A stretch of DNA of 38,305 nt from Rhizobium sp. Q54 (GTDB lineage Bacteria > Pseudomonadota > Alphaproteobacteria > Rhizobiales > Xanthobacteraceae). The stretch spans positions 1-38,305 of the forward strand of contig CAMDSH010000029.1 of assembly GCA_945907045.1 (NCBI GenBank), written 5' to 3'. Below the pieces are notes generated by a model, which had not been told where the DNA came from, searched no databases, and worked only from the letters and a program-made list of their open reading frames with translations. Below are positions 14,605 through 34,760 of this stretch, piece after piece. Position 1 is the stretch's first letter. The number at the start of each line of letters is the position of its first letter. The position numbers were made by a program, and so were the translations under genes.

Positions 14605-17547
14605 TCACTCCGCCGCCTGTATCCCTTTCTTCCGCTTGTTCTCCCGCCGCGCCAGCACCTGCGCCAGAAATTGCCCGGTGTAGCTGCGTTTCACCTTCAC
14701 AATATCTTCCGGCGTGCCTGATGCGACGATCTCGCCGCCGCCGTCGCCGCCTTCCGGGCCGAGGTCGATGATCCAGTCGGCGGTCTTGATCACTTCCAGA
14801 TTGTGCTCGATGACGACGACGGTGTTTCCCGTTTCGACCAGCTCGTGCAGCACGTCGAGCAGCTTCGCCACGTCGTGGAAATGCAGGCCGGTGGTCGGCT
14901 CGTCCAGAATGTAGAGCGTGCGGCCGGTCGCGCGCTTCGACAGTTCCTTGGCGAGCTTGACGCGCTGCGCCTCGCCGCCGGAGAGCGTCGTCGCCTGCTG
15001 GCCGACATGGATGTAGCCGAGGCCGACGCGCTGCAGCAGCTGCAACACGTCGCGCACGCGCGGCACCACTTTGAAAAACTCCGCCGCCTCGTCCACCGTC
15101 ATGTCGAGCACGTCGGCGATGGATTTCTGCTTGAACGTCACCTCCAGTGTCTCGCGGTTGTAGCGCTTGCCCTTGCAGACATCGCAGGTGACGTAAACGT
15201 CCGGCAGAAAGTGCATCTCGATCTTGATGACGCCGTCGCCCTCGCAGGCCTCGCAGCGCCCGCCTTTGACGTTGAACGAGAAGCGGCCGGGCTCGTAGCC
15301 ACGCACTTTCGCTTCGGGCAGGCCGGCGAACCATTCGCGGATCGGCGTGAATGCGCCGGTGTAGGTCGCCGGGTTCGAGCGCGGCGTGCGGCCGATCGGC
15401 GACTGGTCAATGTCGATCACCTTGTCGAGGTGCTCCAGCCCTTCGATCTTGTCGTACGGGGCGGGGGCTTCCGACGCGCCGTTGAGCTTGCGCGCGATCG
15501 CGGTGTAGAGCGTGTCGACCAGCAGCGTGGACTTGCCGCCGCCGGAAACGCCGGTGACGGCGGTGAACAGGCCAAGCGGGATTTCCGCCGTGACGTTCTT
15601 TAGATTGTTGCCGCGCGCGTTGACGAGCTTGAGCGCACGGCGCGGATTTTTCGGGCGGCGCTCGGGCACGGGAATGGTGCGCTCGCCGTTGAGATATTGC
15701 CCGGTGAGCGATTTCGGGTTGCTCATGATATCGCCGGGCGTGCCTTGCGCGACGATGTGGCCGCCGTGCACGCCTGCGCCGGGGCCGACATCCACTACAT
15801 AATCGGCGGCGCGGATGGCGTCCTCGTCGTGCTCGACCACAATCACGGTGTTGCCGAGATCACGCAGGCGCCGCAGCGTTTCCAGCAGCCGCGCGTTGTC
15901 GCGCTGATGCAGGCCGATGCTCGGCTCATCCAGCACATAGAGCACGCCGGTCAAACCTGAGCCGATTTGGCTTGCGAGGCGGATGCGCTGGCTCTCGCCG
16001 CCGGAGAGCGTTCCCGATGCGCGCGCGAGGGTGAGATATTCAAGGCCGACATCGGCGAGGAATTTCAGCCGCTCGCGGATTTCTTTGAGTACCCGAACGG
16101 CGATTTCGTTCTGCTTCTTGGTGAGATGCTTCGGCAGTTCGGTGAACCAGTCGACCGCGCGCTTGATCGACATTTCTGATACTTCGCCGACGTGCAGGCC
16201 GGCGATCTTCACGCACAGCGCCTCGGGCTTCAGGCGGTAGCCCTTGCAGGCGTCGCACGGAATGTCGGTGAAATATTTCGCGATCTCCTCGCGCGCCCAC
16301 TCGCTTTCGGTTTCGCGGTAGCGGCGTTCGAGATTGGTCATCACGCCTTCGAACGGCTTCTTGGTGGTGTAGCCCTTCAGGCCGTCGTCATAGACGAAGC
16401 GAATGTCGTCCTCGCCGGAGCCGTGCAGGATCGCGTCCTGCGTTTTCTTCGGCAGGTCCTTCCATTTCGCGTCGAGCGTGAAGCGGAAATGCTTGCCGAG
16501 CGCTTCCAGCGTTTGCGTGTAATAGGGCGAGCTTGAGCGCGACCACGGCGCGATGGCGCCCTTGCGTAAGGTTACGTCCTTGTCGGGAATGACCAGATCA
16601 GCGTCGATTTTCTGCTCGACGCCGAGCCCGCCGCATTTCGGGCAGGCGCCGAACGGGTTGTTGAAGGAAAAGAGTCTGGGCTCGATTTCCGGAATGGTGA
16701 AGCCGGAAACCGGGCAGGCGAACTTTTCCGAAAAGATCAGGCGGTTGTCGGTTTCGTTTTTCGACTTGTTGGCTTTGCTCCCCGCGGTCGTCGCCGCGCC
16801 GTCGGCGAATTCCACCACCGCGAGGCCTTCCGCGAGTTTGAGCGCGGTCTCCAGCGAGTCCGCCAGCCGCGTCGCGAGGTCCGGCCCCACCACCAGCCGG
16901 TCCACCACCACGTCGAGGTCGTGCTTGAATTTCTTGTCGAGCGTTGGCGCTTCGGAAATTTCGTAGAACTTGCCGTCGATCTTCACGCGCTGGAAGCCGC
17001 GCTTCATCCAGTCGGCGAGTTCCTTGCGGTATTCGCCCTTGCGGCCGCGCACCACGGGCGCGAGCAGATAAAGCCGCGTGCCGTTGGGAAGCGCCATCAC
17101 GCGATCGACCATCTGCTGCACGGTCTGGCTTTCGATGGGGAGGCCGGTCGCTGGCGAATAGGGCACGCCGATGCGCGCCCACAGCAGGCGCTGGTAATCG
17201 TAGATTTCGGTAACGGTGCCGACCGTGGAGCGGGGATTGCGCGAGGTGGTCTTTTGCTCGATGGAAATGGCGGGCGAGAGGCCGTCGATTTGGTCGACGT
17301 CCGGCTTTTGCATCATCTCCAGGAACTGCCGCGCATAGGCGGACAGGCTCTCGACGTAGCGGCGCTGGCCCTCGGCGTAGATGGTGTCGAACGCCAGCGA
17401 GGATTTGCCGGAACCGGACAGGCCGGTGAACACGACCAACTGGTCGCGCGGGATTTCCAGATCGACGTTCTTGAGATTGTGCTCGCGCGCGCCGCGGATC
17501 GAGATCGTGCGGGCATCGTGACGACGGGTGTTTTTCGTTTCGTTCAT
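14605..17547 (-). CDS. uvrA: Excinuclease ABC subunit A (UvrA)
   Basis: Cytosolic DNA-damage sensor of nucleotide excision repair, 980 residues, a tandem ABC ATPase that loads UvrB. Walker A of the first half is [14 protein letters not shown] (about 42-55) and of the second half [14 protein letters not shown]. Signature motifs [16 protein letters not shown] and [16 protein letters not shown] and Walker B strands [11 protein letters not shown] and [11 protein letters not shown] are present. The C-terminal zinc finger (CEAC...CDVC) is complete. The first zinc module has C278, C302 and C305, but Ser281 where E. coli has the second Cys. A short Lys/Asn-rich insert precedes it. A LexA box lies 65 bp upstream. 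Confidence 0.97.
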
Positions 17548-27841: not shown

Positions 27842-28303
27842 ATGGCCAAACCCGAAGACACGATGATTTTGGAAACAACCAAGGGCAAGGTGGTGATCGC
27901 CATGCGGCCCGATCTTGCGCCCGGGCATGTCGCGCGCATCAAGGAGCTGGTGCGCGAAGGCTTTTACGACGGCGTGGTGTTTCATCGCGTGATCGACGGC
28001 TTCATGGCGCAGACCGGCTGTCCGCAAGGCACCGGCACCGGCGGCTCGGGCAAAAAGCTGAAAGCCGAATTCAATCGCGAGCCGCATGTGCGCGGCACGG
28101 TGTCGATGGCGCGTGCGAGCGATCCCAATTCCGGCGACAGCCAATTTTTCATTTGCTTCGACGACGCGCGCTTCCTCGACAATCAATATACCGCGTGGGG
28201 CAACGTCACCGAGGGAATGGACAACGTCGACAAGATCAAGCGGGGCGAGCCGGTGTCGAGCCCCGACAAGATCGTGAAGGCGACCATCGCCGTCGGCACC
28301 TGA
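27842..28303 (+). CDS. Cytosolic cyclophilin (peptidyl-prolyl isomerase B type)
   Basis: A 153-residue cyclophilin without a signal peptide. The active-site strand VVFHRVIDGFMAQTG, the GDSQFFICFDD pocket and QYTAWGNVTEGMDNV match small bacterial PpiB enzymes, so it is probably active on cytosolic proteins. AAGGAAAAC precedes the ATG. It lies between the secreted paralogue and queA (35 bp downstream), consistent with a coaD-ppi-ppi-queA-tgt transcript. Confidence 0.93.
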   Translation: MAKPEDTMILETTKGKVVIAMRPDLAPGHVARIKELVREGFYDGVVFHRVIDGFMAQTGCPQGTGTGGSGKKLKAEFNREPHVRGTVSMARASDPNSGDSQFFICFDDARFLDNQYTAWGNVTEGMDNVDKIKRGEPVSSPDKIVKATIAVGT

Positions 28304-28338: not shown

Positions 28339-29424
28339 ATGCGTACCGACCTGTTCGATTTCGATCTGCCGCAAGAGCGGATCGCCCTGCGACCGGTTTC
28401 CCCGCGCGACGCCGCGCGGCTTCTGGTCGTTCGCCCTCGCGAGGTGCCGGAGCTTGCCGACCGCAGCGTGCGCGATCTGCCCGACCTGTTGCGCTCGGGC
28501 GATGCGATCGTGGTCAACGACACCAAGGTGATCCAGGCGCAGCTCTCCGGCCGTCGCATCGGGCGCGGCACGACGGAGCCGGACGTTTCCGTCACTCTGC
28601 ATCAGCGCGTCGATGGCTCGCGCTGGCGTGCTTTCGCGCGGCCGGCCAGGAAACTGGAAGCCGGCGATGTGCTGCGCTTCGGCTCCGAAGGCAAGGTGTG
28701 CTTGCTCGACCAGCTCGACGCCACGGTGGAGGCGAAAGGCGAGGGCGGCGAAATCACGCTCTCGTTCGCGTTTCACGGGCCCGTGCTCGATCAGGCAATT
28801 GCCGAACGTGGCGACATGCCGCTGCCGCCTTACATCGGGTTGCGGCGCGCACCGGACGAGCAGGATCGCAAAGATTACCAGACGATGTTCGCGAAAGAGG
28901 ATGGTTCGGTGGCGGCGCCGACGGCGAGCCTGCATTTCACTGAAGCGCTGCTCAAGGATCTCGGCCTGCGCGAGATTTCAATTCACAAAGTGACGCTGCA
29001 TGTCGGCGCCGGGACATTTTTGCCGGTGAAAGCCGAGGATACCGACGAACACAAGATGCACCCCGAATGGGGAACGGTGTCACGCGAGACCGCCGCCGCG
29101 CTCAACGCGGTGCGCGCGAAAGGCGGGCGCATCATCGCCGCCGGCTCGACCTCGTTGCGTCTGCTGGAAAGCGCGACGGACGAGATGGGGCAAATCCAGC
29201 CGTTCGAGGGCGAAACGTCGATTTTTATTACGCCGGGCTACCAGTTCCGCGCGGTCAATCTGTTCCTGACCAACTTCCATCTGCCGCGCTCGACGCTGTT
29301 CATGCTCACCGCTGCGTTCTCCGGACTGGACGCGATGCGCCGCGCCTACACGCACGCGATCGAGATGGACTATCGCTTCTATTCCTATGGCGATGCCTGC
29401 CTGCTGTATCCCGCTCCGCGATGA
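28339..29424 (+). CDS. queA: S-adenosylmethionine:tRNA ribosyltransferase-isomerase
   Basis: Enzyme of 361 residues that transfers the ribosyl moiety of SAM to preQ1 in tRNA, making epoxyqueuosine. Family landmarks are [14 protein letters not shown] at 5-18, [14 protein letters not shown], the [11 protein letters not shown] loop, and [18 protein letters not shown] near the C-terminus. The stop overlaps the tgt start in an ATGA junction, so the two are translationally coupled and supply consecutive steps of queuosine formation (Tgt first, QueA second). Confidence 0.97.
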
Positions 29425-30554
29425 CCGGCGCCTTTTCCTTCCGGTTGCACAAAACAGACGGCGATGCGCGGCGCGGCGAATTTTCAACGCCGCATGGCGT
29501 TGTGCAGACGCCGGCCTTCATGCCGGTCGGCACGCAGGCGACGGTGAAGGGGATCGCCCCCGCCGAGGTGCGCGCGACCGGCGCGGAAATCGTGCTCGGC
29601 AACACCTATCATCTTATGCTGCGCCCCGGCGCCGAGCGCATTGCTGAGTTGGGCGGCCTGCATAAATTCATGAACTGGCCGCATCCGATTTTGACTGACT
29701 CCGGCGGCTTTCAGGTGATGTCGCTTTCCGAATTGCGAAAGCTGGACGAGAACGGCGTCACATTCCGCTCGCATCTCGACGGCGCGATGGTTTCGCTCAC
29801 GCCCGAGCGCGCCATCGAAGTGCAGACGCTGCTCGGCGCGGATATCTCGATGCAGCTGGATGAGTGCCTGAAGCTTCCGGCCAAGCGCGACGAGATCGAG
29901 CGCGCCATGCGGCTCTCATTGCGCTGGGCGGAGCGCAGCAAGAAGGCGTTCGAGGCCACACCCAAGGGCCGCGCGCTGTTCGGCATCGTACAAGGCGGTG
30001 ACGATTTAGCTTTGCGCGCCGATAGCGCTCGTGCGCTGGTCGATACCGGTTTTGATGGATACGCCATTGGCGGGCTGGCCGTGGGCGAGCCGCAGAAGGT
30101 GATGCTGGCAACCGTCGCGCAGGTGACGCCATTACTTCCCAAGGAATGCCCGCGTTATCTCATGGGCGTCGGGACGCCGGACGATCTGATCGAAGCCGTT
30201 GCGCGCGGCATCGACATGTTCGATTGCGTGCTGCCCACCCGCAACGGACGGCACGGGACGGCGTTCACGCGCCATGGCCCGATCAATCTTGCCAATGCGC
30301 GACACGCCAACGATCCGCGCCCGCTCGATGCGGAAGCCGCGCACCCTTCAGCGCGCGATTATTCCCGTGCTTACCTGCATCACCTCACCAAGGCGAACGA
30401 GATGCTCGGCGCCATTTTGCTCTCGACCGTCAACCTTGCATATTACCAGGATCTGATGGCGGGCATGCGTGCCGCCATATCGGAGGGGCGTTTTACGGAT
30501 TTCCGGCAAGCCACAAAAGAAGGCTGGGCGCGCGGCGATATTCCTGCGTTATAG
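29421..30554 (+). CDS. tgt: tRNA-guanine transglycosylase lacking the canonical zinc ligands
   Basis: A 377-residue enzyme that swaps guanine-34 for preQ1 in tRNAs with a GUN anticodon. The catalytic residues are Asp93 in [11 protein letters not shown] and the nucleophile Asp268 in [15 protein letters not shown]; their spacing equals that of E. coli Tgt. [12 protein letters not shown] is also intact. The C-terminal zinc site (E. coli Cys302, Cys304, Cys307, His333) reads Ala306, His308, Ala311 and Val337 here, so all four ligands are replaced while the flanking [11 protein letters not shown] is conserved. The enzyme is probably still active, with a structure no longer held by zinc; this is inference. 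The start overlaps the queA stop. Confidence 0.95.
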
Positions 30555-30584: not shown

Positions 30585-31439
30585 ATGACGACGCCGACCA
30601 CTTTCGAACATCGCCGCAAGCCGAACTACAAAATGCCGCCGGGCAGCACCGACGCGCATTGCCACGTGTTCGGACCGGCGTCGCGCTTTCCTTACGCGCC
30701 CAATCGCCGCTACACGCCGGACGATGCGCCGAAAGAAGCGCTGGCGGCGTTGCACAAGCATCTTGGCATCGAGCGCACGGTGATCGTGCAGGCAAGCTGC
30801 CACGGCACCGATAATCGTGCGATGCTGGATGCCATTGCCGCCAACCCAGCGCGCTTTCGCGGCGTTGCGTTGGTGGACGATAAATTCACCGACGCCGACT
30901 ACGCCAAGCTGCAGGACGGCGGCGTTCGCGGTGTGCGATTCAATTTCGTCAAGCATCTCGGCGGCGCGCCTGACATGGGCGTGTTCAACCGCGTGCTCGA
31001 CCGCGTCAAGGGAATGGGCTGGCACGTTGTGCTGCATCTCGATGCGCCCGATATAGCTTCTCTTTCGGACATGATCCGCAAGCTGCCGCTGCCTGTTGTC
31101 ATCGACCACATGGGGCGCGTGCCGGCTGCCGGCGGCGTCGAACAGCCGGCGTTCCGCGCGCTGCTCGAACTCGTGAAGATGGAAAGCTGCTGGATCAAGG
31201 TTTGTGGTTCCGAACGTATTTCCATGCCGCCTTATACGCCGGCCATCCCCATCGCGGCCGCGCTGATGAAAGCATCGCCTGACCGCACGCTGTGGGGCAC
31301 GGACTACCCGCACCCCAACGCGACCCACGATGCGGATGAGGCCGATCTGGTCGATCTGGTGCCGCAATTCGCGCCGGACGCTGCGGCGCAAAAACGGGTA
31401 CTGGTGGACAACCCGGCGCGGCTTTATGGTTTCGTCTGA
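30585..31439 (+). CDS. Amidohydrolase-family metal-dependent hydrolase (LigI / PDC-hydrolase-like)
   Basis: A 284-residue TIM-barrel hydrolase of the amidohydrolase superfamily (amidohydro-rel type). The N-terminal motif STDAHCHVFGP supplies a first-strand HxH-like metal site. Later landmarks are HLDAPDI, PVVIDHMGRVPA and the terminal WGTDYPHPN with the catalytic Asp. Closest known functions are 2-pyrone-4,6-dicarboxylate hydrolase of aromatic-acid degradation and related lactonases; the exact substrate is uncertain. A TctC/Bug binding-protein gene follows 52 bp downstream and a 3-hydroxybenzoate-6-hydroxylase-like gene lies beyond, suggesting aromatic acid catabolism. Confidence 0.85.
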   Translation: MTTPTTFEHRRKPNYKMPPGSTDAHCHVFGPASRFPYAPNRRYTPDDAPKEALAALHKHLGIERTVIVQASCHGTDNRAMLDAIAANPARFRGVALVDDKFTDADYAKLQDGGVRGVRFNFVKHLGGAPDMGVFNRVLDRVKGMGWHVVLHLDAPDIASLSDMIRKLPLPVVIDHMGRVPAAGGVEQPAFRALLELVKMESCWIKVCGSERISMPPYTPAIPIAAALMKASPDRTLWGTDYPHPNATHDADEADLVDLVPQFAPDAAAQKRVLVDNPARLYGFV

Positions 31440-31491
31440 CGCTCAAGAACAAACGCAACAACAGCTTAAAAAACGCACAGAGGATATGCAT

Positions 31492-32481
31492 ATGCACAAA
31501 GGCAACATCGAACGCCGTACGCTTATTCTAACGCTGGCGGCCGCGGCGCTTTTCGCAGCAACGCCGCTCACCGCACAGGCGCAGAAATATCCCGATCGTC
31601 CGGTGCGGATGATCCTGCCCTTCGGCGCGGGCGGAGTGGCGGATATTTCCTCGCGCGTCATCGCCGACAAACTGGGCGAGAAACTCGGCCAGCGTTTCGT
31701 GGTCGAGAACATGCCGGGCGCCGGCGGCATCACCGCGGCGAACGCGGCGAAGTCCGCCACGCCGGACGGCTACACGCTGGCGCTGCTCACCAATGGCACC
31801 GCCATCAGCGTGCCGCTGTTCAAGAGCCTGCCGTTCGATCCGCTGAAGGATTTCGTGCCGATCTCGACCTTCGGCTATTTCGATTGCCTGTTCATCGTCA
31901 ATTCGGATTCGGAATTCAAGACGCTCGCCGATTTCGTCAAGACTGCGCGCGCGCAGCCAGGCAAACTCAATATCGGCACCATCACGCGCGGCGGAACGCA
32001 AAATCTCACCGCCGAATTATTCAAATCGACGGCAGGGCTGAATCTGGAAATCGTTCCGTTCCGCACCTCGCCGGAAGCCGTCATCGCGCTGCTGCGCAAG
32101 GACGTGCACATGGTGATCGACTTTTACGCCGCATTGAAACCGGGCCTCTCGGACAACAAGACCCGCGCGCTGGCCTGGAGCGGCCCGCATCGCTCGCAGG
32201 CGCTGCCCACGCTGCCGACCGCGCAGGAAGCCGGCGTGAAGGGCTTTGAGGTCACATCGTGGAACGGCCTTTACGCGCCGGCCGGAACGCCGCCCGCCGT
32301 CATCGCGACGATCAACAAGGCGCTGCGGGAAATTCTCGCCGACAAAGACGTGAAAACGAGGCTGCTCGATCTCGGCATCGAAGCCCGCGCCGGTTCGCCG
32401 GCCGAGATGGACGCGCAGATGCGCGCGGACATCAAGAAATGGGGCGCGGTGATCGAGAAAGCGGGAATTCCGCAGCAGTAA
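31492..32481 (+). CDS. Tripartite tricarboxylate transporter binding protein (TctC/Bug family)
   Basis: Exported solute-binding protein of 329 residues. A signal peptide at about 1-30 (ends PLTAQAQ) is followed by the Bug opening YPDRPVRMILPFGAGGVADI and ENMPGAGGITAANAAKSATPDGYTLAL. Two in-frame ATGs lie six bases apart; I chose the second because GAGG is then eight bases upstream. Bug proteins bind dicarboxylates and aromatic acids; orphan copies without TctAB are common in relatives, as here. Its place beside ring-cleavage-type genes suggests an aromatic or dicarboxylic ligand. Confidence 0.92.
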   Translation: MHKGNIERRTLILTLAAAALFAATPLTAQAQKYPDRPVRMILPFGAGGVADISSRVIADKLGEKLGQRFVVENMPGAGGITAANAAKSATPDGYTLALLTNGTAISVPLFKSLPFDPLKDFVPISTFGYFDCLFIVNSDSEFKTLADFVKTARAQPGKLNIGTITRGGTQNLTAELFKSTAGLNLEIVPFRTSPEAVIALLRKDVHMVIDFYAALKPGLSDNKTRALAWSGPHRSQALPTLPTAQEAGVKGFEVTSWNGLYAPAGTPPAVIATINKALREILADKDVKTRLLDLGIEARAGSPAEMDAQMRADIKKWGAVIEKAGIPQQ

Positions 32482-34684: not shown

Positions 34685-34760
34685 TGGTGAGCGCGGCGGG
34701 ACTCGAACCCGCGACCACCTGATTAAAAGTCAGGTGCTCTACCAACTGAGCTACGCGCCC
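34685..34760 (-). tRNA. tRNA-Lys (UUU)
   Basis: A 76-base cloverleaf read on the minus strand, beginning GGGCGCGTAGCTCAGTTGG. The anticodon loop CTTTTAA gives anticodon UUU. The T arm contains GGTTCGAGTCC. The acceptor stem GGGCGCG pairs with CGCGCTC (one G-U), followed by discriminator A and an encoded CCA. Confidence 0.95.

Follow-up and report, generated by a model that had tools for sequence, protein, structure and literature searches.

Mutants of E. coli Tgt, the tRNA-guanosine(34) transglycosylase of the queuosine pathway, in which the zinc ligands are altered have been reported as impaired. Extracts of PMC6165067 name two hallmarks of the Tgt class, of which the zinc domain is one, and extracts of PMC9508795 state, from work on E. 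coli, that TGT requires zinc for activity, which counts against a metal-free reading of the protein described here. No report of a Tgt without zinc ligands was found in the literature searched, which comprised open papers. Mutants of S. meliloti in queF, queC and tgt were strongly defective in symbiosis, with little or no defect in a queA mutant (extracts of PMC3568095); the word zinc is absent from the main text of that paper.

The window, by which we mean the whole stretch of 38,305 nucleotides analysed, carries a tgt gene encoding a protein without the canonical zinc ligands, in a same-strand row with a cyclophilin gene and queA. The features referred to in the text are as follows.

27842-28303, + strand: cyclophilin gene
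28339..29424, + strand: queA, queuosine pathway (PF02547, 389.6 bits; ORF coordinates)
29421..30554, + strand: tgt, 377 aa, without canonical zinc ligands (TIGR00430, PF01702)
29697..29699, + strand: catalytic Asp93, codon GAC, Asp in all aligned rows
30222..30224, + strand: catalytic Asp268, codon GAT, Asp in all aligned rows
30252..30254, + strand: His278, compared between site-less and zinc-type rows below
30336..30353, + strand: former Cys-x-Cys-x2-Cys loop, now Ala306-x-His308-x2-Ala311 (translation, alignments)
30429..30431, + strand: former His ligand (E. coli His333), now Val337, codon GTC (alignments)
14605-17547, - strand: UvrA, four-Cys cluster (Cys765, 768, 788, 791) intact by reading of the residues

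By ORF coordinates, the 3' end of queA and the start of tgt overlap by 4 bases. Downstream lie an amidohydrolase gene (30585-31439, + strand) and then a gene for a TctC-type receptor (31330-32481 as the longest ORF, + strand), and the sole tRNA gene found in the window is a tRNA-Lys (TTT) at 34685-34760 on the - strand.

The protein scored 482.7 bits against TIGR00430, above the curated cut-off of 306.75 that marks the bacterial Tgt family, and carries both of the aspartates looked for in a bacterial Tgt (Asp93 and Asp268); the zinc site is not required for the family score. Only a single PF01702 match, and thus no second, zinc-type copy, was found in the host genome, which is 91% complete, so that the protein was rejected as a Zur-switched zinc-free paralogue. 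A Tgt match was present in 59 of the 60 genomes searched, the host included. Queuosine partner genes are found in the host genome, namely QueG (447.3 bits), QueC (230.1) and QueF (108.2), in addition to QueA upstream of tgt. Some of the near Tgt relatives at 81-82% identity in the protein search are named Pseudolabrys sp., which makes the host a probable member of that genus.

A preliminary description of this DNA had claimed that all four zinc ligands of Tgt were replaced while both catalytic aspartates were kept, and this was confirmed by the translation, by the codons and by a gap-free alignment with the Z. mobilis Tgt chains, in which Ala306 (30336-30338, GCC), His308 (30342-30344, CAC), Ala311 (30351-30353, GCG) and Val337 fall on the Cys, Cys, Cys and His columns. 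The same alignment bore out the exact spacing and the conserved flanks that had been noted, and the protein accordingly lacks the Cys-x-Cys-x2-Cys-x25-His site. The zinc ligands were retained in 5/5 of the PDB chains read in the alignment (56 PDB sequences matched), and the zinc motif is also intact in the E. coli-like chain 10fb. Sequencing error, which had been judged unlikely, is excluded in practice because relatives have the same loss, with 34/34 further genus genomes read also lacking the full set. The residue at 308 is a His, itself a possible ligand type; as residue 308 varies among near relatives (His in 98 of the 117 read among the best 120 matches listed; Tyr, Cys, Asp, Phe or Asn in 19), His308 is not a strict substitute.

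When Tgt was aligned across the order, as had been proposed, the loss of ligands proved common to the whole order as sampled. Cys-Cys-Cys-His was found in 0/101 genomes of the host's GTDB order in which the site was read, the host included, a sample made up of 58 genus and order genomes (host included), three more (L140, L141 and L143) and a further 40. The genus contributed 35 other genomes, of which 34 sites were read and one (G027) was left out as it gave a partial match only. The further 40 were drawn from the listed matches among the 151/199 order genomes with a RAYLHHL-coding pattern, and therefore a strongly diverged Tgt would escape that set. One order row with a one-residue gap (L229) was read by eye as Ser-Cys-Ala-Ala. 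In the other orders of the class, the full set was present in 59/77 rows and absent from 18/77; the class search gave a match in 356/386 genomes, from which 80 regions of 79 genomes were taken, all better-scoring, so that these 77 rows also come from better-scoring matches with the weaker ones left out. In many alphaproteobacterial genomes (e.g. G071, G192 and G215) the sole Tgt match was far more remote, with E of about 1e-50 to 1e-90. The outgroup, consisting of beta- and gammaproteobacteria and two rows of unclear class, was zinc-type in 17/17 rows.

Protein searches gave a similar picture. The zinc-type site occurred in 0/117 near relatives read (119 stood among the best 120 matches listed) and in 0/120 of the matches listed to a Rhizobium Tgt query, the named ones of which were mostly Rhizobium, Allorhizobium and Agrobacterium. 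These best 120 matches carried Ser-Cys-Ala-Asn (41), Ser-Cys-Ser-Asn (32), Ser-Cys-Ser-His (25) and Ser-Cys-Thr-Asn (22), so at least two ligands are missing from the Rhizobiaceae Tgt read here. The Tgt of S. meliloti, which we take to be a member of the Rhizobiaceae, was sought and was absent among the best 120 matches listed for this query. The protein of the window is an order-wide variant of a known enzyme, with the full ligand set absent across the order as sampled, and since the full set is lacking order-wide, the loss is lineage-typical rather than special to this host, contrary to the suggestion that it was unusual here. The zinc-independent clade that had been proposed is supported as a group without the zinc site, and is far larger than suggested; the clean loss that went with it was unsupported.

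Partial sets contradicted the idea of four coordinated changes. In 91 site-less rows (genus thinned), 3, 2, 1 and 0 of the original ligands were kept in 2, 20, 49 and 20 rows respectively, with the first Cys remaining in 3, the second Cys in 68, the third Cys in 2 and the His in 22; common partial sets include Ser-Cys-Ser-His and Ser-Cys-Ala-Asn. Rarer sets were also seen, namely Ser-Ser-Cys-His (L095), Cys-Cys-Leu-His (L183), Cys-Cys-Ser-His (L166) and Ser-Asn-Cys-Ile (L041). Within the genus, no original ligand remained in 33/35 rows and one remained in 2/35, with His308 and Ala311 in 35/35 and Ile or Val at 337 in 35/35. On these alignments the loss looks graded.

How often it occurred was addressed with trees, and the counts of losses based on them disagree with one another. 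A quick tree of 194 rows needed 11 changes, at least 5 of them forced by starred branches, and a quick tree made without column 278 (186 rows) needed 8, while a careful tree of 94 rows, in which the bootstrap had not settled and one outgroup row was misplaced, needed 10, with at least 3 forced. Constraining the 69 His278 rows of the 186 together gave a tree 167.8 log units above the free quick search (p-AU 0.954, not rejected); as the constrained tree outscored the free search, the quick trees are poor. In the careful tree, two Erythrobacter rows with Ser-Cys-Ser-His cluster, with full support, with Erythrobacter and Porphyrobacter rows of the zinc type, and because of this grouping the outer cysteines were likely lost separately in these two rows. 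Our reading of the trees, which is not a demonstration, is that one main loss and a few separate ones may have taken place.

One explanation is neutral drift, in which zinc became redundant once other contacts had been made and the ligands were then lost for no adaptive cause. The graded loss with its many end states and the probable several separate losses in the class favour this explanation, but the new states are constrained, with Ser at 306 in 77/91 site-less rows, Ala, Ser or Thr at 311 in 85/91 and Cys or His at 308 in 80/91, and we would give drift a little under even odds.

Selection to save zinc in zinc-poor habitats appears unlikely as the cause of the loss. Alphaproteobacteria have swapped almost all zinc ribosomal proteins for zinc-free forms (extracts of PMC3087516), and in the host genome a single L31 and a single L36 were found (loci L265 and L266, contig C5), both free of cysteine. 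The last L36 Cys is gone in 10/15 site-less genomes (a single one being left in 5/15) vs 1/15 zinc-type genomes (at least one Cys in 14/15), a difference that is inseparable from ancestry and may reflect nothing else. Against zinc saving, a motif of at least three Cys was missing from L36 in 15/15 site-less and 15/15 zinc-type genomes and from L31 in 14/14 and 15/15; across both Tgt groups, 0/30 further L36 and 0/29 further L31 of alphaproteobacterial genomes had three or more Cys. As the motif is absent whatever the state of Tgt, the loss of ribosomal zinc sites came without the loss in Tgt, and a joint loss of the two was unsupported. Cysteine clusters are moreover kept in UvrA, encoded in the window, and in QueC of the host, so that some structural zinc sites are gone and others kept in this genome. 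Zinc limitation had been offered as a possible cause in the preliminary description; the results did not bear this out, as the L31 and L36 motif is lacking regardless and tgt, present once and overlapping queA, is no spare paralogue.

A second mark of the site-less proteins is His278, which was present in 77/91 site-less and 0/86 zinc-type alphaproteobacterial rows, raw counts that are confounded by ancestry. The 86 zinc-type rows have Thr, Asn or once Met at this position, and His278 was found in 237/237 relatives read among the best 120 matches of each protein search. A covariation test of pairs had 5 of them on starred branches, a number too small to reach significance, and a role for His278 as a helper of site-less Tgt is suggested by correlation only. 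The residue just before it, Arg277, is presumably one that contacts tRNA, as in the Z. mobilis Tgt complex. Column 278 was the only one that is mostly Cys or His in the 91 site-less rows while not so in zinc-type rows; a relocation of the ligands was rejected on these columns, and the loss stands against the possibility that the four Cys and His had shifted to another position.

His278 would be the centre of a rival explanation in which a metal is still bound near the old site through other residues, for example His278 together with residue 308, a His here and a Cys in most relatives, and some group nearby. The distribution of His278 speaks for this, as does the frequency of Cys or His at 308 given above, with His in all genus rows. 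However, no further column gained Cys or His in this way, several rows with His278 carry Trp, Ser, Thr, Val, Asn or Glu at 308, and His278 itself is missing from 14/91 site-less rows, all of which make such a replacement site quite improbable.

The window tgt is under purifying selection: dN/dS had a median of 0.20 and a maximum of 0.33 over the 557/595 genus pairs with dS under 1.2, and was 0.097 between the window gene and its nearest relative. An AlphaFold2 model of the window Tgt (57 aligned sequences) had a mean pLDDT of 92.3, with the blocks of residues 301-340 at 95-98, comparable to a zinc-type Sphingomonas control (mean 92.1; the same blocks at 95-98), although AlphaFold2 models no metals and high confidence is no proof of stability without zinc. 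Foldseek matched the predicted model best to Z. mobilis Tgt 1efz (TM 0.94), and the 50 matches listed were all TGT entries (TM 0.92-0.95). This suggested that the Tgt fold is retained, and the ligand loop was predicted just as confidently as that of the zinc-type control. That the protein is decaying or without exchange activity, as the impaired ligand mutants of E. coli might suggest, is scarcely credible given the low dN/dS, the full-length frames, the catalytic Asp in all rows and the presence of the pathway genes.

Because the catalytic residues are kept and the gene is under purifying selection, this Tgt likely works without zinc. Our main reading, to which we give a probability of roughly three in four, is that the sole Tgt found in this genome probably inserts preQ1 in place of guanine 34 of tRNA, its zinc subdomain being held by packing and no metal, after a loss shared by the order as sampled and probably stepwise. 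No zinc would be bound and activity would be retained, with packing as the substitute: Ala, Ser or Thr at 311 and, in the genus, Ile or Val at 337 could fill this role, and in a large alphaproteobacterial group protein packing may thus have replaced the structural zinc clamp. A wider claim, that this group (the order and its neighbours) makes queuosine with a metal-free Tgt that has a clamp of protein alone, anchored by a His278 that has newly become fixed, zinc being replaceable and not required, is tentative and we consider it doubtful. Together with the natural intermediates, a lineage that lacks the ligands forms a series in which the dismantling of a structural metal site in an enzyme under selection can be followed, and it is a warning that the zinc requirement of Tgt should not be transferred to site-less proteins.

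Compared with the known systems, the window protein is a real variant of a known enzyme, likely zinc-free and active. It resembles the Tgt of Z. mobilis and E. coli in predicted fold, catalytic aspartates and TIGR00430 membership, and its flank reads RAYLHHL where that of Z. mobilis reads RAYIHHL, but it differs from them in having no Cys-Cys-Cys-His site and in having His278 in place of Asn. With QueD2, a predicted Zur-regulated second copy (extracts of PMC9508795), it has in common that zinc supply and the queuosine pathway are connected, but the window Tgt is the only copy found in its genome. The zinc-free (C-) ribosomal proteins of alphaproteobacteria (S4, L31, L36 and others; extracts of PMC3087516) are similar in the lineage-wide loss of a zinc site from a sole retained copy of a translation-related protein, whereas Tgt is a tRNA-modifying enzyme, has lost the site in only part of the class and has no C+/C- paralogue pair in the host genome.
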